From: a virus
DNA: 64,000 nucleotides
Direction: 5' to 3' (one strand)
IMG/VR virus record: IMGVR_UViG_3300043395_001642
Span: 1 to 64,000 of that record
This document shows, piece after piece, positions 10,502 through 34,220 of this stretch. Under the pieces are notes generated by a model, which worked only from the letters and a program-made list of their open reading frames with translations, made no database searches and was not told the DNA's origin. Position 1 is the first letter of the stretch, and each line of letters starts with the position of its first letter. A program made the position numbers and the translations under genes.

Positions 10502-11138
10502 AGATTCGTTTGGAGCGGACGCTGTATTCTTGAGTGACTTTGACTCCAGACGGTAGGTGTTGTCCTGTTTGGTAGGCATTACGTATGGCATCGAGGTTAG
10601 GGAGAACTTTAGTTTTGGTTGTAGGTTCTGTTGTGTCTGAGATAACAGCACCTGAGATTGACCGTAGCACAACTCGTTTTGTTGTGGTGGTTTCTTCTTC
10701 AACGCAATAACGTTCTCTTTCTTCAGGACTCCATACGTCCGGATCCGAGGAGATTTCAACAGTTAAGTCCCTTTTCTTAACGAGTGTGAACTGGTAGTTG
10801 CGTCCCGTGATCTTGTTGGTGTTGAAGGGGAGGGAACGCTTGAGCCAGTTTAACAATCCCTTAAGCGACCGCAGTTGGGATTCGTGGTGACGTTTGGCAT
10901 TCGTGATGAGTTCAGATTCTTTCTTGATGCGTTCCAGGGCGTCTTCGTGCGCCGCCATGGCGTAGTAGATACGATCAATCTTTTCAGAGCGAAGCTGGGA
11001 GCAAGTCTCCAGTTCCGCTTTAGCAAGCTCTTGGGACTCAGGAGTGAGAAGAGGGAGAGACTGCTCGAGAGCAGCATAATGCTTGTACAACTCGTAAACA
11101 TTTAGTTTATTCAGTTTTGTTTCTGTGATCTGGGCCAT
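10437..11138 (-). CDS. Siphovirus Gp157-like protein
   Basis: The N-terminal ~90 residues form a long coiled coil (LNVYELYKHYAALEQ...), followed by a helix, LKGLLNWLKRSLPFNTNKI and ITGRNYQFTLVKKRDLTVEI near 115-135. This layout matches the Gp157 family of phage proteins (Pfam Siphovirus Gp157), usually encoded among replication genes and sometimes linked to phage resistance in lactic bacteria. The C-terminal ~60 residues are an extra beta-rich extension. It heads the leftward run of small genes and has a CAACTCAACTGACCC leader without a ribosome site. Confidence 0.65.
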   Translation of the reverse strand: MAQITETKLNKLNVYELYKHYAALEQSLPLLTPESQELAKAELETCSQLRSEKIDRIYYAMAAHEDALERIKKESELITNAKRHHESQLRSLKGLLNWLKRSLPFNTNKITGRNYQFTLVKKRDLTVEISSDPDVWSPEERERYCVEEETTTTKRVVLRSISGAVISDTTEPTTKTKVLPNLDAIRNAYQTGQHLPSGVKVTQEYSVRSKRIYVEPRVELQTSEYPGELLPKD

Positions 11139-11360: not shown

Positions 11361-11480
11361 TTAAACGGTATGGAAATGGGATTGAACTTTGTTGATGCAG
11401 TAGGACAGCAGCATGCCTGCTGCTGCCCACAACAAATCTTTCAGCACTGGGACAATAGCACCAAGAATGGATTCAAACAT
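11361..11480 (-). CDS. Tiny membrane protein (39 aa)
   Basis: MFESILGAIVPVLKDLLWAA..., with one strong hydrophobic helix over residues 16-28 and a short polar tail. It is the first gene after the conserved hairpin/TTAAACTG element at 11511-11534, with its ATG 30 bases downstream, which supports it as real despite its size. Role unknown. Confidence 0.5.
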   Translation of the reverse strand: MFESILGAIVPVLKDLLWAAAGMLLSYCINKVQSHFHTV

Positions 11481-11510
11481 GAATGAGATGAGTTGATGAA
11501 ATGTGTTAGT

Positions 11511-12506: not shown

Positions 12507-13456
12507 GATTTCTTAACAGCCTCCTTGAGTTGAGGTAGTGCAGTACCAGGGAATGGAACGTAGCCTGCCTCCATCATATTGAAGAACAGATCCCACGCAT
12601 GGTGCTGTGTCAATACGTCATTGGGTTTGTAGGTACGCCAGTGGCTGAGCGGTGCTTGTGCACCTGACTTGGTATGTAGCAATACAAAACGTCCGTCACT
12701 GTTGGCGTCAACGGGAGGGGCATACCACCAAGCGACGCACTTATCAGACACACCACTAGGTGCTGCATTGCGTAGTTCCGTGCGTTTGCAGAGCAACTCA
12801 CGATACTTCTGGAACCAGGTCAGGTGTATACACCACGGTTCAAATCCCTGGATCTCTTCTTGGAAAGCAGATAAGTTGTTGAGCTGACGTTGAAACGACC
12901 CACACGAGCATGTAGGTTTGCCAAACAGCGGCTCTTGTTCGGTATCAGAGTCCAGTTCAGAGTCCAGATCAAGCGGTTGATTCGGAAGCCGAAGTCCGTC
13001 GGGCGCCACCAAATGGCCCAGGTCCGTCTGGTCAGACTGAAGCAGGGTGATGAGTTTGTTTGGGTCTGAGAGATGGATGAATCGATCTGCCCAGTGGGCT
13101 TGGAGCTTGGCGTTTGGTGTGAGGTGTCCGAGAGCATGGGTGTAGGTCCATCCTTTGAAGAGTACGTAAGCGTTATTACGCCAGACACTGGGACCACGGT
13201 AGTTAGGTCCGAGGTAGGAGAAGAAATTCTTGAGGCGATGGGTGTAGGTACTGTAAGCAGATTTAATCAGTGTCCTGTCGTAAGTTTGCTCAGTACCATC
13301 GCGACGCACCACAATGCAATTGTTATCTCGCACACCAATGCCAGCAATCTCGGTGTCATCAAAGTCGGGATACGCACGACGGATGTTAGTACGGGTATAG
13401 ATGCATGCCTGGGCAGCATTGAGTTCCAGGACTGTGGCAAAGTGTTTGGTTGTCAT
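12503..13456 (-). CDS. SWIM-type zinc-finger protein
   Basis: 317 residues. C183-S-C185 followed by C209-I-H211 gives the CxCx(n)CxH signature of SWIM zinc fingers, which bind DNA or partner proteins and occur in recombination mediators. The first ~130 residues are rich in aromatic residues and arginine (KNFFSYLGPNYRGPSVW). No other domain is recognised. The leader has CTTAACTCAACTC directly before the ATG and no Shine-Dalgarno sequence. The DNA-metabolism neighbourhood agrees with a nucleic-acid role. Confidence 0.55.
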   Translation of the reverse strand: MTTKHFATVLELNAAQACIYTRTNIRRAYPDFDDTEIAGIGVRDNNCIVVRRDGTEQTYDRTLIKSAYSTYTHRLKNFFSYLGPNYRGPSVWRNNAYVLFKGWTYTHALGHLTPNAKLQAHWADRFIHLSDPNKLITLLQSDQTDLGHLVAPDGLRLPNQPLDLDSELDSDTEQEPLFGKPTCSCGSFQRQLNNLSAFQEEIQGFEPWCIHLTWFQKYRELLCKRTELRNAAPSGVSDKCVAWWYAPPVDANSDGRFVLLHTKSGAQAPLSHWRTYKPNDVLTQHHAWDLFFNMMEAGYVPFPGTALPQLKEAVKKS

Positions 13457-14025: not shown

Positions 14026-15114
14026 GTCTTCACCTGTTACTTCATCTCGGGAGGGCAAGGATTTGACATCAATGGCTTCAGTGGTACGTGATTCGGGAAG
14101 AATTTGTACACCAGCTTTAATGCCGTAAGCGCCCCCAAGCTTTTCAGCGTCTTGGCGCGAATGTGCGTTGATGTAGTCATCAAACATCTCCTGCATTTTC
14201 CAGGTGGATTCCCGATCTTCATCAGGGATTGAGAGACGGTTCAATGATTCGATTGCATCTTCCTGGCTGCTGTAGTCAGGGATATCAAACGATTCAATAG
14301 CACAGATCTCTACGTTGTTTGCACCACGCATCTCGTTGGCAAGGACGGGAGCAAACACAGTGGTGGCATAGAACTTCTCGTTGAATGCCAGTGGCACCTC
14401 AGAATCAAGCGCTTTGCTCAAACACTTAGACATTTCTTTTTCATACAGCCGCACTTTATCTGAAACATCAGTGCCATTCAATCCCTTAAGTGTCAGTACC
14501 ATTGGGATCTTGTGCGCACGCTTATTGTCCTTGGTAACAATAAATACCAAGTACTTGGTACGCACACTGTACTTACGCTTGTACATCTCACCTTTACTGG
14601 AAGCAAGATCAGCTGCAATCTTGTCAGCTTCAAATAATTCTTTGACCTCTGGATTCTCAAAGGTACCAATTGTCATGCGCATCCCAGTTGTCTCTTCCAC
14701 CATTAGTGGTGAGCGCAACAGAATTTGAATGCGCGGCTCAACAAAGTTCAAGCCTTCTTCGACGGATGTATTGGGTGCCATGCCAAAGGTTTGCTTGTAA
14801 CCCCAGATAACTGAGCCTTTGGCAAACTCATCTTCAGTTGCAGTCCAACCACAAGTATCAAGGTCAGACTTACGAATAAACCAACCTCGTGTCTTGGATT
14901 TATTTAGAGGTTGAATAGTAACAAGATTCTGGTAACCAGAAACAAATTCTTTGGACTGGAACATTTGAAAAGATTCCAGGCCACGGGTAGCAAGAGCAGA
15001 GGATTTTTTCGTGGTCATTTTGTTGAGAGTTTTCAGGGAAGGAGGAGTGACAGTTTCAGCTTGGATGTTATCCATCCATTCATCAGTCAGGGGATCAATC
15101 GGTGTTTGTGTCAT
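14014..15114 (-). CDS. Conserved replication-module protein of unknown function
   Basis: 366 residues from the ATG at 15114 (MTQTPIDPLTDEWMDN). The frame is open to 15153, but that earlier ATG lies inside the conserved regulatory element and is rejected. LESFQMFQSKEFVSGYQNLV, RGWFIRKSDLDTCGW and KYSVRTKYLVFIVTKD suggest a compact mixed fold; it may belong to the cyanobacterial DUF5895 group, a guess. It lies downstream of the SSB gene in its own transcription unit. A DNA-annealing or accessory role would fit, but nothing proves it. Confidence 0.55.
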   Translation of the reverse strand: MTQTPIDPLTDEWMDNIQAETVTPPSLKTLNKMTTKKSSALATRGLESFQMFQSKEFVSGYQNLVTIQPLNKSKTRGWFIRKSDLDTCGWTATEDEFAKGSVIWGYKQTFGMAPNTSVEEGLNFVEPRIQILLRSPLMVEETTGMRMTIGTFENPEVKELFEADKIAADLASSKGEMYKRKYSVRTKYLVFIVTKDNKRAHKIPMVLTLKGLNGTDVSDKVRLYEKEMSKCLSKALDSEVPLAFNEKFYATTVFAPVLANEMRGANNVEICAIESFDIPDYSSQEDAIESLNRLSIPDEDRESTWKMQEMFDDYINAHSRQDAEKLGGAYGIKAGVQILPESRTTEAIDVKSLPSRDEVTGEDSSL

Positions 15115-25789: not shown

Positions 25790-25821
25790 GGTAGGTTCAG
25801 GGTTTAGTTCAGGGTAGTGAG

Positions 25822-25845
25822 CAGTTTAACGTCATGCTCAGGACG
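25822..25845 (-). promoter_or_regulatory. Conserved hairpin/TTAAACTG element, copy 5
   Basis: CGTC-CTGAGCAT-GACG then TTAAACTG on the minus strand, 32 nt before the PcfJ-like start. Confidence 0.7.
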
Positions 25846-26320: not shown

Positions 26321-26380
26321 GCCTGGGACTTACACTGTATCTTTCTGTGCTATGTGCACAGCGATTACAGATGCCCAGGC
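26321..26380 (-). other. Structured RNA candidate with nested stems
   Basis: On the minus strand GCCTGGG pairs with CCCAGGC 46 bases on; inside it CTGTA pairs with TACAG, and inside that CTGTGC / GCACAG forms a hairpin with loop ACATA. Three stacked stems in 60 nt, between a stop codon and the leader of the 61-residue gene. No T-run follows, so it is not a plain terminator. Confidence 0.5.
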
Positions 26381-28962: not shown

Positions 28963-29043
28963 GGTTGAGTTGCAATGGTGTAGTCTGCGTTTATAGGATG
29001 CGCAGCCCCCTGATAATATAAATAATTATTGGTTAACAAATAA

Positions 29044-29759: not shown

Positions 29760-29784
29760 AGTTAGACCAAATAAAAACAATGAG

Positions 29785-29808
29785 CAGTTTAACGTCATAC
29801 TCAGGACG
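29785..29808 (-). promoter_or_regulatory. Conserved hairpin/TTAAACTG element, copy 6
   Basis: CGTC-CTGAGTAT-GACG then TTAAACTG on the minus strand, 25 nt before the ATG at 29759. Confidence 0.7.
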
Positions 29809-30800: not shown

Positions 30801-31064
30801 TCAGAGTGTGTTGAGAATGTATCGAACGCAGACCAAAGGTTCTGGTTCGTAGTTCGGGGGCAGTTCTTCATAACAGAACCATTGCCCCTTGATGTCAATG
30901 TCCATGCATTCTGTAAACGATGCTAAATGAAAAGCATTTGGACCCTTGGTGCACCAAACGATATAAATAACGTTAGGTTCACACAATAAATAATAATCAT
31001 CTTCCTTAATGTTGAACCGCTTGAGTGCGTCTTGTATCTCTTGATGATCTGTTGTCAATGCCAT
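30801..31064 (-). CDS. Small paralogue pair, member 1 (87 aa)
   Basis: From MALTTDHQEIQDALKRFNI. Shares with the gene at 31144-31506 the plan D-QDI-…-F-I-…-DD-Y-…-IKG-W (EDDYYLLCE, then MDIDIKGQWFCYEELPP). The pair is probably an old duplication. Function unknown; the fold looks alpha/beta. Confidence 0.55.
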   Translation of the reverse strand: MALTTDHQEIQDALKRFNIKEDDYYLLCEPNVIYIVWCTKGPNAFHLASFTECMDIDIKGQWFCYEELPPNYEPEPLVCVRYILNTL

Positions 31065-31143
31065 GGTTGAGTTGAGATGTTGGGTGGATGCAGGATGTTG
31101 AGTCCTGCAGAAACCCATCATTGCTGATGGGAATGTGCAGAAA
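31065..31143 (-). repeat. Two-hairpin spacer 1
   Basis: 79 nt. CTGATTTCTGCA start, hairpin CCCATCA-GCAA-TGATGGG, TTTCTGCAG, hairpin GCAGGA-CTCAACA-TCCTGC, leader CTCAACTCAACC, ATG. The TGA is the stop codon of the gene upstream. Confidence 0.75.
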
Positions 31144-31506
31144 TCAGCTAAACGGACCTTCAGGATCACCAATAGAACCTGTTCCAGTGCCATCAATAAA
31201 ATAACGGCATTTAACGTGCTTCTGTCTTTTCAGCCAATCAATAATTTCTTGATAAATCAAAAAATCTGATTCGTCATAATCCATATGACACCACTTGCCT
31301 TTAATCTCTAAATAAACATTGTCAATTTCACAAGGTAAATCTTGGTAATAATTAAAAACGTCTGGTTGTCCAATCCAATACATATGTGCTGAAATCTGTT
31401 TGCCAGAATTTTCAGTCTTCACAGCAAAATAAACATCATCAATAGTGATGTTCATAATTTCAAAAACCCGTTTAATGTCTTGATAATCAAAAGTAAGTTC
31501 CATCAT
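31144..31506 (-). CDS. Small paralogue pair, member 2 (120 aa)
   Basis: From MMELTFDYQDIKRVFEIMN. Contains DDVYFAVKTENSGKQ and VYLEIKGKWCHMDYDESDF, matching the plan of the 87-residue gene downstream. It is more complete, with an added C-terminal helix and KCRYFIDGTG. Function unknown. Confidence 0.6.
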   Translation of the reverse strand: MMELTFDYQDIKRVFEIMNITIDDVYFAVKTENSGKQISAHMYWIGQPDVFNYYQDLPCEIDNVYLEIKGKWCHMDYDESDFLIYQEIIDWLKRQKHVKCRYFIDGTGTGSIGDPEGPFS

Positions 31507-31588
31507 GGTGTAGATAATTAAGTAATGACAGCAGGATATTGAGTCCTGCAAGAAAGGCCCTGGTAACCCAAGGCCCTTGATGCAGAAG
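31507..31588 (-). repeat. Two-hairpin spacer 2
   Basis: 82 nt. CTGACTTCTGCA, an 11-bp hairpin with loop GTTA (AAGGGCC arm) followed by TTTCTTGCAG, then GCAGGA-CTCAATA-TCCTGC and the leader. The first hairpin has a strong terminator look. Confidence 0.75.
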
Positions 31589-31990
31589 TCAGAATGGAAT
31601 TTCTTCCAGTGTGGGCACAGCTGGTGCTGATGCCATAGCCACTGGTATTGCAGAAGCAGGAGGCAGATATTGCGGTGCGGCACCAATGATAGCCCTCACA
31701 TTCGTGAGGTTGATCTGTGGGTAACGCAATGCAATAAGCTGACCATCCTTGATGTAATGGCTGCGGATCGTATTGATACGAACCTCCCACTGCGTGAGGA
31801 TAAGTTCTTGTCCTACGACCAGGGTGCCATTACGAAATGCTGTAAGCAAACCATTGGCATTATTGAATTTGATGCGGCAACCATTACCAGACTTGTCGTT
31901 GACAGCCATGGTAACTGCAAGGAACTCGCTACCTTCATGGGTAGCAACTTCCAAGTAGCAGATGTTGCCGACAATCGCTTGAGTAAACAT
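31589..31990 (-). CDS. Second SSB-like protein (133 aa)
   Basis: From MFTQAIVGNICYLEVATHE. The strands ICYLEVATHEGSEFLAVTMAV, C-IKFNNANG and QLIALRYPQINLTNVRAII look like a small OB fold, and the protein ends Pro-rich then PTLEEIPF. That EEIPF tip resembles the acidic-aromatic tail (DDDIPF) of SSB proteins. So a single-domain SSB-like protein is likely, but the OB fold call rests on pattern only. It lies inside the array of small genes, not beside the first SSB. Confidence 0.5.
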   Translation of the reverse strand: MFTQAIVGNICYLEVATHEGSEFLAVTMAVNDKSGNGCRIKFNNANGLLTAFRNGTLVVGQELILTQWEVRINTIRSHYIKDGQLIALRYPQINLTNVRAIIGAAPQYLPPASAIPVAMASAPAVPTLEEIPF

Positions 31991-32089
31991 GTTAGTAATG
32001 AGTTGAATTGAGGTACAGGATATTGAGTCCTGCAGAAAACCCACCGTCCGATACGAATTCGTATCAAACGGAAGGGTTAAGTGCAAGAG
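31991..32089 (-). repeat. Two-hairpin spacer 3
   Basis: 99 nt. CTGACTCTTGCA, a long imperfect hairpin built on the 16-bp palindrome at 32050-32065 and closed by ACCC / GGGT with TTTT after it, then CAGGA-CTCAATA-TCCTG and the leader CAATTCAACTC. Confidence 0.75.
32050..32065. repeat. 16-bp perfect palindrome, copy 1
   Basis: GATACGAATTCGTATC, the same as at 33888-33903. The identity extends to 20 bases (CGATACGAATTCGTATCAAA). Confidence 0.9.
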
Positions 32090-32329
32090 TCAGTCTGCGT
32101 TACGGTACTCCCACTTGAGTAGTTCTCGGTTGAGATCTACCTTCCGTTGGAGCACCACGCAGAATGGCATCAGGTCTTGAAACTCACGCATGCCGTCCTG
32201 CCATTGGAAGAACAAGTCGAGTGCAGCTTGACGCTGGCTCTCAAGTTCTGTGTCAATGACAGGGGCATCCCTCCTGGCAAGCAGGCGGGCATCTTGCGTG
32301 AGCAGATATTCAACAGCTTTAGGAGTCAT
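32090..32329 (-). CDS. Hypothetical protein (79 aa)
   Basis: Starts MTPKAVEYLLTQDARLLAR. Helical and charged, ends LKWEYRNAD. Function unknown. Lies between spacers 3 and 4. Confidence 0.5.
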   Translation of the reverse strand: MTPKAVEYLLTQDARLLARRDAPVIDTELESQRQAALDLFFQWQDGMREFQDLMPFCVVLQRKVDLNRELLKWEYRNAD

Positions 32330-32415
32330 GGTTGATTCCAGTTGGTGTGAATTGAGCTGAGTTTGATGCAGACTTGAGGTCTGCAGAGAAGGCCCGTAGG
32401 CCCTCAGTGCAAACG
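32330..32415 (-). repeat. Two-hairpin spacer 4
   Basis: 86 nt. CTGACGTTTGCAC, hairpin AGGGCC-TACG-GGCCTT with a UNCG-class tetraloop, CTCTGCAG, hairpin GCAGAC-CTCAA-GTCTGC, leader AATTCACACC..., ATG. Confidence 0.75.
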
Positions 32416-32604
32416 TCAGATATTAATCTTGGGTGTAATAACGAATGCCATATCGTTCGGCATGACGAGTGCCGCTGCCCGAACCCTGAGTTCGTTCAGC
32501 TTCTCGGATGCCTGTGCCTTGGTAGGCACCTTGGCATTCTCTACTGCCGATGCGGCAAGCCGCATGATATTGGCAGTGTTCTTCCTGATGTTGAGTGCAG
32601 TCAT
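32416..32604 (-). CDS. Hypothetical protein (62 aa)
   Basis: From MTALNIRKNTANIMRLAAS. Basic helix with EKLNELRVRAAALVMPND then VITPKINI. Its stop codon is part of the CTGACGTTTGCA start of spacer 4. Function unknown. Confidence 0.5.
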   Translation of the reverse strand: MTALNIRKNTANIMRLAASAVENAKVPTKAQASEKLNELRVRAAALVMPNDMAFVITPKINI

Positions 32605-32685
32605 AGTATGGTGTTGAGTTGAGTAAATGCCACGGGATTGTGGCAATAGTTGTGTGGGGGATTCGATCCCCCGGCTCACGCCTGG
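32605..32685 (-). repeat. Two-hairpin spacer 5
   Basis: 81 nt. First hairpin GGGGG-ATCGAAT-CCCCC, a T-arm look-alike; second TGCCAC-AATCCC-GTGGCA, then leader CAACTCAACACC. This spacer may fold into a small cloverleaf together with the end of the gene upstream (32649-32703). Confidence 0.7.
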
Positions 32686-32880
32686 TCAAATGACCATCAC
32701 AACATCGTCGGCTTCCATCATCTCCTGGAAGGACATGATCTGCACGTCATGCGTGCCTTGGATGCCGTCGTTAAGTTCAGGTGAGTTGAGTTCGAAGTCG
32801 TATTGTGCAGCTTCGATAAGCGCTTCTTCCCAAAGGAAGGAAACGCCATGCTGCACACCATTGATCACGATGTAATACAT
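32686..32880 (-). CDS. Hypothetical protein (64 aa)
   Basis: From MYYIVINGVQHGVSFLWEE. Small beta hairpin then acidic helix (LNSPELNDGIQGTHDV). The 3' end of this gene contributes one strand of the cloverleaf-like fold in spacer 5. Function unknown. Confidence 0.5.
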   Translation of the reverse strand: MYYIVINGVQHGVSFLWEEALIEAAQYDFELNSPELNDGIQGTHDVQIMSFQEMMEADDVVMVI

Positions 32881-32955
32881 GAGTCGAGTTGTAAGTTGAA
32901 CGCAGACTTGAGGTCTGCAGTAACCCCTGGCTTTCACCAGGGGAAAGTGCAAACG
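32881..32955 (-). repeat. Two-hairpin spacer 6
   Basis: 75 nt. CTGACGTTTGCAC, hairpin CCCCTGG-TGAAAG-CCAGGGG, TTACTGCAG, hairpin GCAGAC-CTCAA-GTCTGC (same as spacer 4), leader CAACTCGACTC. Confidence 0.75.
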
Positions 32956-33141
32956 TCAGTTAGTCTTGTAACCATTATCTGCACACCAGTCCATATGGAT
33001 CTGATGCGCAGCTTTAGGCCATGCGTGATCACGGCATTGCTTGGCAGCAGCTTGGTCCAGCATGTGTGCACCAATCTGGCTAGCAATGCCTGCACCGATG
33101 GCAGTAACAATGACAAGGATAAAGAACTGATTCTTGGTCAT
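32956..33141 (-). CDS. Small protein with N-terminal membrane segment (61 aa)
   Basis: From MTKNQFFILVIVTAIGAGI. Residues 5-20 are hydrophobic, like a membrane anchor or signal peptide; the rest has two cysteines (QCRDHAW, DWCADNGY) and is His/Trp-rich, suiting an exported domain. Function unknown. Confidence 0.5.
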   Translation of the reverse strand: MTKNQFFILVIVTAIGAGIASQIGAHMLDQAAAKQCRDHAWPKAAHQIHMDWCADNGYKTN

Positions 33142-33222
33142 AAGTTGAGTTGAATGTAAGCCACACTCAGTGTGTGGCAATAACTGGGCCAGGGTTTGCA
33201 CCTGGCCTCCCGCTTTAACGGA
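33142..33222 (-). repeat. Two-hairpin spacer 7
   Basis: 81 nt. Hairpin GGCCAGG-TGCAAAC-CCTGGCC, then TTATTGCCACAC, hairpin GCCACAC-ACTGA-GTGTGGC, leader CAACTCAACTT. Confidence 0.75.
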
Positions 33223-33468
33223 TCAGCTTGCAAGCTTCAGCACCTGAATGCTGAAATTAGGAAACAGATGAAGGCGATAATCGCAGTCACGCTTACCGCA
33301 CTCACATGGATTGGAATCCCAATCCTCCTGTTCCTTAACAATGGCTTCTGCTTTAAGCAATGCCATTGCATTCTCCGCACTCTGACGAGTGGGATAAAGA
33401 GTGTCCTGGTGAATCCAACGATAATAAGAATCGTCTGGAGTAGAAACCTGGACGGCAAAGAGTTCCAC
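33223..33468 (-). CDS. Hypothetical protein (81 aa)
   Basis: From a GTG at 33468 preceded by AGGAG, one of the few leftward genes with a Shine-Dalgarno site. MELFAVQVSTPDDSYYRW..., a helix, and CECGKRDCDYR, which may bind zinc. Function unknown. Confidence 0.55.
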   Translation of the reverse strand: MELFAVQVSTPDDSYYRWIHQDTLYPTRQSAENAMALLKAEAIVKEQEDWDSNPCECGKRDCDYRLHLFPNFSIQVLKLAS

Positions 33469-33552
33469 AAGGAATCTCCTGTTGTGCGGTGCCTATCTCC
33501 GCTGGAGGCAATAACCAGAGCCAGGCATTGCACCTGGCATGGGAGCTATCAC
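33469..33552 (-). repeat. Two-hairpin spacer 8
   Basis: 84 nt. Hairpin GCCAGG-TGCAATG-CCTGGC, then TTATTGCC, hairpin built on TGCC/GGCA and CTCC-AGC-GGAG, then AGGAG before a GTG start. Confidence 0.7.
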
Positions 33553-33732
33553 TCACCTGGCCTGGAGTTGACGCACGAACTTGCGTGCGTTCTCCACTGA
33601 CATTGTGGTACTGCAGTCATAACCCCTCTGGCCCTTGCGGACCAGCTTGGTGATGCGTGCCATACCTACTTCCTTGTTAACAACAAAGCAGTACGTGGCC
33701 TGCTTGGTTGCAACAGTGCAGAAAATGTCCAT
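33553..33732 (-). CDS. Small basic protein (59 aa)
   Basis: MDIFCTVATKQATYCFVVN..., then MARITKLVRKGQRGYDC. Beta-rich and basic, 59 residues. It is the first gene of the leftward array and lies 32 nt after regulatory copy 7, supporting its reality. Function unknown. Confidence 0.5.
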   Translation of the reverse strand: MDIFCTVATKQATYCFVVNKEVGMARITKLVRKGQRGYDCSTTMSVENARKFVRQLQAR

Positions 33733-33887: not shown

Positions 33888-33903
33888 GATACGAATTCGT
33901 ATC
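33888..33903. repeat. 16-bp perfect palindrome, copy 2
   Basis: GATACGAATTCGTATC, identical with copy 1 in spacer 3; 20 bases are shared. Here it stands alone in the hub with A6 on its right, so it is not a terminator in either direction. Confidence 0.9.
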
Positions 33904-34194: not shown

Positions 34195-34220
34195 AAAAAA
34201 GCCAGGATTTTACTCCTGGC
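34195..34220 (-). terminator. Terminator, leftward
   Basis: GCCAGGA-GTAAAA-TCCTGGC then six Ts on the minus strand, right after the stop of the 34246-34458 gene. Confidence 0.85.

Follow-up and report, generated by a model that had tools for sequence, protein, structure and literature searches.

This analysis concerns an array of nine tiny leftward genes (positions 30801-33732) in a 64,000-nt stretch, hereafter the window, of the IMG/VR virus record IMGVR_UViG_3300043395_001642, itself 70,092 bases long, and in particular the eight spacers that lie between these genes. The spacers are of two RNA families, designated type A (n = 5) and type B (n = 3). The structure of these linkers is near certain, while their mechanism is put forward conditionally: the preferred reading, to which a probability of about 0.48 is attached, is that they would act as RNA punctuation of a leftward multi-gene transcript and double as homologous joints for the gain and loss of genes. 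The closest named relative of the window phage is Synechococcus phage S-EIV1, the window terminase being 67-89% identical to those of other records of the clade and 75-84% identical to that of S-EIV1 (in two pieces). None of the nine small array proteins gave a significant match in Pfam or PHROGs.

An earlier note on this DNA had listed the eight spacers with their lengths (79, 82, 99, 86, 81, 75, 81 and 84 nt, from low to high coordinate), all of which were exact, and had ascribed a single plan to them. The plan, running from CTGAC-TTTGCA to TGCAG, held for five spacers (those starting at 31065, 31507, 31991, 32330 and 32881), but the other three (32605, 33142 and 33469) obey a second plan, ending in TATTGCC. 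One family for all eight was ruled out, as the type A covariance model, the kind of check that the note had proposed, matched exactly the five type A spacers in the window and nothing else, and the leader CAACTCAAC that the note had included proved to be only a tendency. The type A plan consists of TGA(stop)-N-NNNTGCA, an inner GC hairpin, TGCANNN-N-TCA, a loop, and NNYTGC. The middle arm can pair with the 5' arm (form I) or with the 3' arm (form II), and the two pairings are mutually exclusive. Such a switch had been noted in one spacer, but each of the five type A spacers showed the exclusive pairing, as did relatives, where it appeared as three-strand covariation. In a non-redundant set of 52 type A copies (<90% alike, and excluding two false or reverse-strand matches, L011 and L076), nine different middle triplets were found, fully matched by the 5' arm in 46 copies and by the 3' arm in 50. 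The 3'-arm covariation is the cleaner test, because the search that produced the collection demanded partial pairing of the 5' arm but set no condition on the 3'-arm triplet; when 3' arms were shuffled, a mean of 19 triplets matched, and none of 20,000 trials reached 50. Different triplets also coexist inside single genomes.

The claim that the stems vary while pairing is kept was borne out by the aligned set, in which 92.4% of cells of the hairpin form were paired and 11 pairs had changed on both sides. The covariation score was 0.487, compared to 0.175 in shuffles, and none of 500 shuffles was as high in either score or paired cells, while sliding of the partners cut the paired cells to 36-47%. 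This shuffle control leaves relatedness in, which is why copies were limited to those less than 90% alike. The same hairpin was recovered by RNAalifold without guidance, and among the larger collection of covariance-model matches the TGCA core itself changed together with its partner (TGTA/TACA, TACA/TGTA). Form I comprises 14-28 bp (mean 18.7), interrupted by a 1x1 mismatch and usually also by an internal loop; the TGCA core, the CTCA loop and the pyrimidine-pyrimidine (Y-Y) mismatch are conserved beyond the needs of pairing. On the coding strand, the 5'-arm stem of the 52 copies held 35 G-U cells against three C-A/A-C cells, and the 3' hairpin was nearly all Watson-Crick (153 of 156 cells). 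The wobble asymmetry fits a transcribed RNA, and the sense-strand excess of G-U argues that RNA is the working molecule of type A. A protein bound to a DNA palindrome was ruled out, since the covariation includes sense-strand G-U pairs and differs among the linkers of one genome. The 5' arm added a mean energy of -13.2 kcal/mol and the 3' arm -8.9, placing form I ahead by about 4 kcal/mol, and this long hairpin was favoured in 51 of the 52 copies. The 3' hairpin would therefore form only once the 5' arm had been cut off or covered.

Type B elements, found in three window spacers and in many spacers of relatives, have a stem that encloses the stop codon or lies close to it, then a small hairpin and one that resembles a tRNA T-arm, and after these the motif ATTGCC and a second hairpin or pseudoknot. 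In spacer 32605..32685, the closing stem GTTGTG:CACAAC starts within the upstream gene. The loop of the T-arm-like hairpin was mostly NNCRANN, closed by G-C, although the 57 copies compared were chosen via a list of T-arm-like loops, so that its conservation is partly by construction. Among these copies the P3 stem was 5-8 bp long, and the P1 stem had a mean of 5.77, compared to 4.80 with shuffled partners and a maximum of 5.04 in 200 shuffles. A strict type B pattern was found in 87 stretches of IMG/VR. One subtype has a second hairpin whose loop can pair downstream, in a helix that varies while its pairing is kept (GCGG:CCGC, TGTGG:CCACA, GCCG:CGGC, GTAGG:CCTAC); in spacer 33469..33552, for example, the GCGG loop of the GCC..GGC hairpin can pair with a downstream CCGC. 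This helix may form a pseudoknot or another, exclusive fold. With its NNCRANN loop, G-C closing pair and closing stem between cistrons, type B resembles the T-arm portion of the elements used in tRNA punctuation and of mitochondrial t-elements (PMC9181182, PMC4919922), but it has no anticodon arm and lacks the full cloverleaf, and the tRNA models of Rfam gave no matches in the array.

The suggestion that genes had been inserted into a standard linker was strengthened by the stop codons, since the upstream gene terminates at the element's TGA in at least 34 of 50 type A copies, a lower bound because the script put at least two other copies in the wrong frame. Six whole-gene gains or losses between close relatives had their junctions inside linkers. 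Two records that are 94-99.5% identical to the window around the array (L005 and L077) lack one gene between spacers 33469 (left partner) and 33142 (right partner), and two genes between spacers 32881 (left partner) and 32330 (right partner), and both junctions are hybrid linkers. Comparable junctions were seen in the pairs L020/L043, L029/L042, L057/L070 and L018/L038. Junction points varied (5' arm, middle arm, leader or type B core), and several events showed an overlap of about 19-78 nt; two more indels, in L004/L052 and a second one in L029/L042, were without such overlaps. The differing crossover points argue for recombination between linkers that is homologous rather than site-specific. 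Of the recombination sites proposed in the earlier note, gene swapping at the linkers is thus retained, but not a dedicated site-specific type, as crossover points differ and a tyrosine integrase (PF00589) was not found in the 70-kb record, which may be incomplete.

The linkers are not confined to the window phage. They recur in related phages, including S-EIV1. In IMG/VR, a degenerate type A pattern was matched by 73 stretches, comprising about 45 different sequences; the inner hairpin is clear in most of them, while a few are evidently chance matches. When 49 records were searched whole, 47 matched the type A pattern and one matched a control pattern, and among the matches listed, copies clustered within one or two kb per record. 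The type A covariance model gave 170 matches in 75 sources. Besides the S-EIV1-like phages, which are freshwater cyanobacterial viruses, a second set of carriers was identified (L009, L013, L025, L057, L060, L070, L072 and L074) with no match to the window terminase, although several of these records are fragments. Among them, L057 is a relative of S-SRP02 (L100), a Synechococcus phage of the Autographiviridae that has been isolated. The genome of S-SRP02 encodes a T7-type single-subunit RNA polymerase and an integrase, and its early region carries three type A elements in a row, one with a further triplet set, CAC/GTG/CAC. The same early region also has a long type A-like hairpin at 12527-12591, GGGAGAGCTCTGCA...TGCAGGGCTTTCCC. 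The words 'hairpin', 'stem-loop' and 'intergenic' do not occur in the S-SRP02 genome paper (PMC8790148). Among 84,980 bacterial and archaeal genomes, a strict type A pattern matched only twice, in sequences titled as Bacteroidales and Desulfobacterales metagenome-assembled genomes, which is about the number expected by chance according to our estimate, and an element borrowed from the host was ruled out on this basis. Neither family has a match in Rfam, the covariance models of which gave no matches in the array at gathering score; at E values up to 5, only weak and implausible matches appeared, none of them within spacers. Short-query BLAST directed at named phages returned unrelated partial matches only, and is evidently too weak for type A, since S-EIV1 and S-SRP02 carry the element.

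If the linkers punctuate the leftward transcript, an RNase III-type host nuclease, specific for double strands, would cut type A RNA on the 3' side of its inner hairpin. A hairpin would then remain at the 3' end of the upstream mRNA, while the middle arm, once freed, would refold with the third strand into a 5' cap hairpin about 20-25 nt ahead of the next start codon. Cutting followed by refolding would explain why both pairings of the middle strand are kept. Type B would have the same role, with a T-arm-like cap followed by the second hairpin or pseudoknot, and RNase Z or RNase P are candidate nucleases. As the genes are flanked by linkers of nearly standard form, which usually supply their stop codons, whole genes would be cleanly added or removed by homologous recombination from linker to linker.

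Punctuation is preferred because of the resemblance of the type A hairpin to the early RNase III sites of phage T7. The spacers of the T7 early region are RNase III processing sites; when folded in this analysis they formed an outer stem, an internal loop and an inner stem, the 0.4/0.5 hairpin enclosing a stop codon. The type A hairpin is similar in size and layout to the T7 type of site, a double-stranded hairpin of about 15-25 bp with an internal loop between cistrons, and type A is found again within the early region of S-SRP02, itself a T7-like cyanophage. The T7 spacers differ in having no apparent third strand or second hairpin. Type A, for its part, is marked by a TGCA core that hardly varies, by conservation of the Y-Y mismatch and by the strict placing of its stop codon. 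Punctuation is also favoured by the three-strand covariation over nine triplets, the core changes that preserve pairing, the stem pairs retained as TAA:TTA and TCA:TGA where the stop of the gene precedes the element, the sense-strand G-U wobble, and the gene gains and losses joined within linkers. Several points weigh against punctuation. RNase III has no strict consensus, so that the likeness to T7 sites is generic, and the near-invariant core and conserved mismatch point to a binder of greater specificity. Type B does not have the look of an RNase III substrate, nor does it have an Rfam tRNA match. RNase III was not found in the phage record by its Pfam model, so a host enzyme must be assumed.

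The main rival, which we regard as rather unlikely, has the 5' arm covered instead of cut: a ribosome terminating at the linker TGA would mask the 5' arm and allow the 3' hairpin to form, while without translation the long hairpin would form, and the linker would in this way signal to the downstream gene whether the one before it is being translated. A terminating ribosome has a downstream footprint of about TGA plus 8 nt, and this is the extent of the type A 5' arm. The frequent use of the element's TGA as the gene's stop (at least 34/50), the position of the next start codon, mostly 27-38 nt past the TCA, and the energetic need of form II for a masked 5' arm all agree with such a switch. However, in several exceptions the real stop lies 4-16 nt further upstream, where a ribosome would miss the arm; the first bases of the element drift in these copies, yet pairing is often kept, as TAA:TTA in L014 or, flipped, as TCA:TGA in L092. 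Furthermore, neither form sequesters the start site or Shine-Dalgarno sequence, as far as could be seen, and type B has no matching switch at its closing stem. Stop-codon read-through or recoding is unlikely, as not every spacer has a length divisible by three.

Transcription attenuators or partial terminators, grading expression along the operon, were among the roles first suggested, and would accord with the GC-rich hairpins followed by short T stretches, with two alternative structures such as attenuators have, and with weak terminator-like matches in spacers 31991 and 33469. This role has a low probability, since all 52 type A copies have only 1-4 T in the 8 nt past the inner hairpin, the type B T-arm has no U-tract after it, and a proper terminator with six T lies in the flank of the array (34201-34220). 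Attenuators of the classic form are not supported, and terminators are ruled out for type A by the T counts and for type B by sequence. The same counts separate the linkers from the PeSL cassettes of T4-type phages, which, according to PMC4503421, are repeated stem-loops between small genes that mediate gene shuffling, each a promoter plus a terminator stem-loop (Arbiol 2010; Comeau 2014; both as cited there). The linkers share the gene shuffling, as seen in the six events above, but lack the terminator (at most 4 T after the hairpin) and the early promoter (7 promoter-like sites in the array region, compared to 8.5 expected), and type A is a bistable, three-strand RNA containing a stop codon.

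It is also doubtful, and about as improbable as attenuation, that the spacers are recombination linkers only, either conserved repeats without an RNA function or site-specific sites like integron attC. Integron arrays consist of single genes in one direction, and behind each gene lies a hairpin element whose middle varies. The one-direction, cassette-like arrays with a stop codon inside the element, and the joining of six gain/loss events within linkers, several with overlaps, would be expected of such sites. Against this, plain repeats need no compensating changes across three strands, the G-U pairs on one strand are those of an RNA, and there is neither a fixed crossover point (5' arm, middle arm and leader all serve) nor a tyrosine integrase found in the window record. 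Least probable is a role as binding sites for an RNA-binding protein, of phage or host, by which each small mRNA would be stabilised or silenced. This idea is encouraged by the excess conservation of the TGCA core, CTCA loop and Y-Y mismatch, but pairing in two structures also accounts for the constancy of TGCA, core variants occur (TGTA/TACA, TACA/TGTA), and no candidate protein emerged.

The earlier statement that no phage system like this has been described was too strong, given the T7 early sites, the PeSLs, and a third partial precedent in the cluster K mycobacteriophages, although none of the three has the type A element. In the latter phages, the start-associated sequence (SAS) is asymmetric, 13 bp long and located near the start codon, and the extended start-associated sequence (ESAS) is made up of a single pair of imperfect inverted repeats of 17 bp (PMC3203893). 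Like the linkers, these repeats accompany many small, non-structural genes within a single group of phages and are rare elsewhere, with inverted repeats upstream of starts, but neither three-strand covariation nor a stop codon within the element is described for them (PMC3203893). The SAS repeat GGGATAGGAGCCC was not seen on reading the window linkers, which were not scanned for it. Taken by analogy, the linkers would work like T7 processing sites and PeSL shuffling cassettes, yet by the tests made in this analysis they are neither PeSLs, intrinsic terminators nor attC sites.

Table 1. Genes and spacers of the array in the window (spacer entries for type A give the 5'/middle/3' triplets).
Feature	Position	Strand	Details
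Gene, 87 aa	30801..31064	-	
Spacer, type A (TTC/GGA/TCC)	31065..31143	-	Element including stop codon 31089-31146; 66.6 bits
Gene, 120 aa	31144..31506	-	
Spacer, type A (TTC/GGA/TCC)	31507..31588	-	Element 31530-31591; 54.2 bits
Gene, 133 aa	31589..31990	-	Conserved within clade
Spacer, type A (TCT/GGA/TCC)	31991..32089	-	Element 32014-32092; 65.8 bits
Gene, 79 aa	32090..32329	-	Conserved
Spacer, type A (GTT/GAC/GTC)	32330..32415	-	Element 32365-32418; 62.3 bits
Gene, 62 aa	32416..32604	-	Absent in L005/L077
Spacer, type B	32605..32685	-	T-arm-like hairpin GGGGGATCGAATCCCCC, ATTGCC, hairpin GCCACAATCCCGTGGC
Gene, 64 aa	32686..32880	-	Absent in L005/L077
Spacer, type A (GTT/GAC/GTC)	32881..32955	-	Element 32899-32958; 60.3 bits
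Gene, 61 aa	32956..33141	-	
Spacer, type B	33142..33222	-	CCGTTAAAGCGG hairpin, T-arm-like GGCCAGGTGCAAACCCTGGCC, ATTGCC, hairpin GCCACACACTGAGTGTGGC
Gene, 81 aa	33223..33468	-	GTG start; absent in L005/L077
Spacer, type B	33469..33552	-	T-arm-like GCCAGGTGCAATGCCTGGC, ATTGCC, GCC..GGC hairpin
Gene, 59 aa	33553..33732	-	First small gene in array

Other structured sequences were found in the window. The long inner hairpin of spacer 31991..32089 contains GATACGAATTCGTATC (32050-32065), a perfect 16-bp palindrome, a second copy of which lies upstream of the array (33888-33903); it is also present in inner hairpins of the relatives L066, L079 and L028. At 26321-26380 (minus strand), a further structured spacer, GCCTGGGCATCTG...GTAAGTCCCAGGC, has relatives with the same ends in L087 and, twice, in S-EIV1 (L098, ~10735-10790 and ~11435-11485), and together these look like a third RNA family. 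The motif GTCCTGAGYATGACGTTAAACTGCTCA, with a TGAGCA/TGCTCA hairpin, occurs in spacers at 29781-29807 and 25818-25844 (both minus strand) as well as in S-EIV1 and L087, and a hairpin, GGGGGCTGCGCATCCTATAAACGCAG, precedes a small gene at 28985-29010 (minus strand), with near copies in S-EIV1 (L098, ~14068-14095) and L022. A longer version of the window phage, IMGVR_UViG_3300047546_002006 (L078; 79,218 bp), was identical over the 8.5 kb compared.

The linkers represent two RNA families, both large and strongly structured, that Rfam does not list. The phages in which they occur include at least two isolates, S-EIV1 and S-SRP02, so that the mechanism can be tested directly. They offer a concrete route for the quick turnover of tiny early phage genes that leaves the operon unbroken, the stop codon and RNA ends being borrowed from the linker. 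A bolder possibility, which we consider somewhat unlikely, is a universal gene slot: a portable, bistable, stop-anchored RNA, shared by cyanophages of two unrelated lineages, that would sense translation termination or cleavage and reset the ends of the next mRNA, with type B achieving this by tRNA-style punctuation. If so, any gene placed between two linkers would become an independently processed unit. Should cutting and refolding hold, the linkers could also be useful insulating joints for the construction of cyanobacterial operons.

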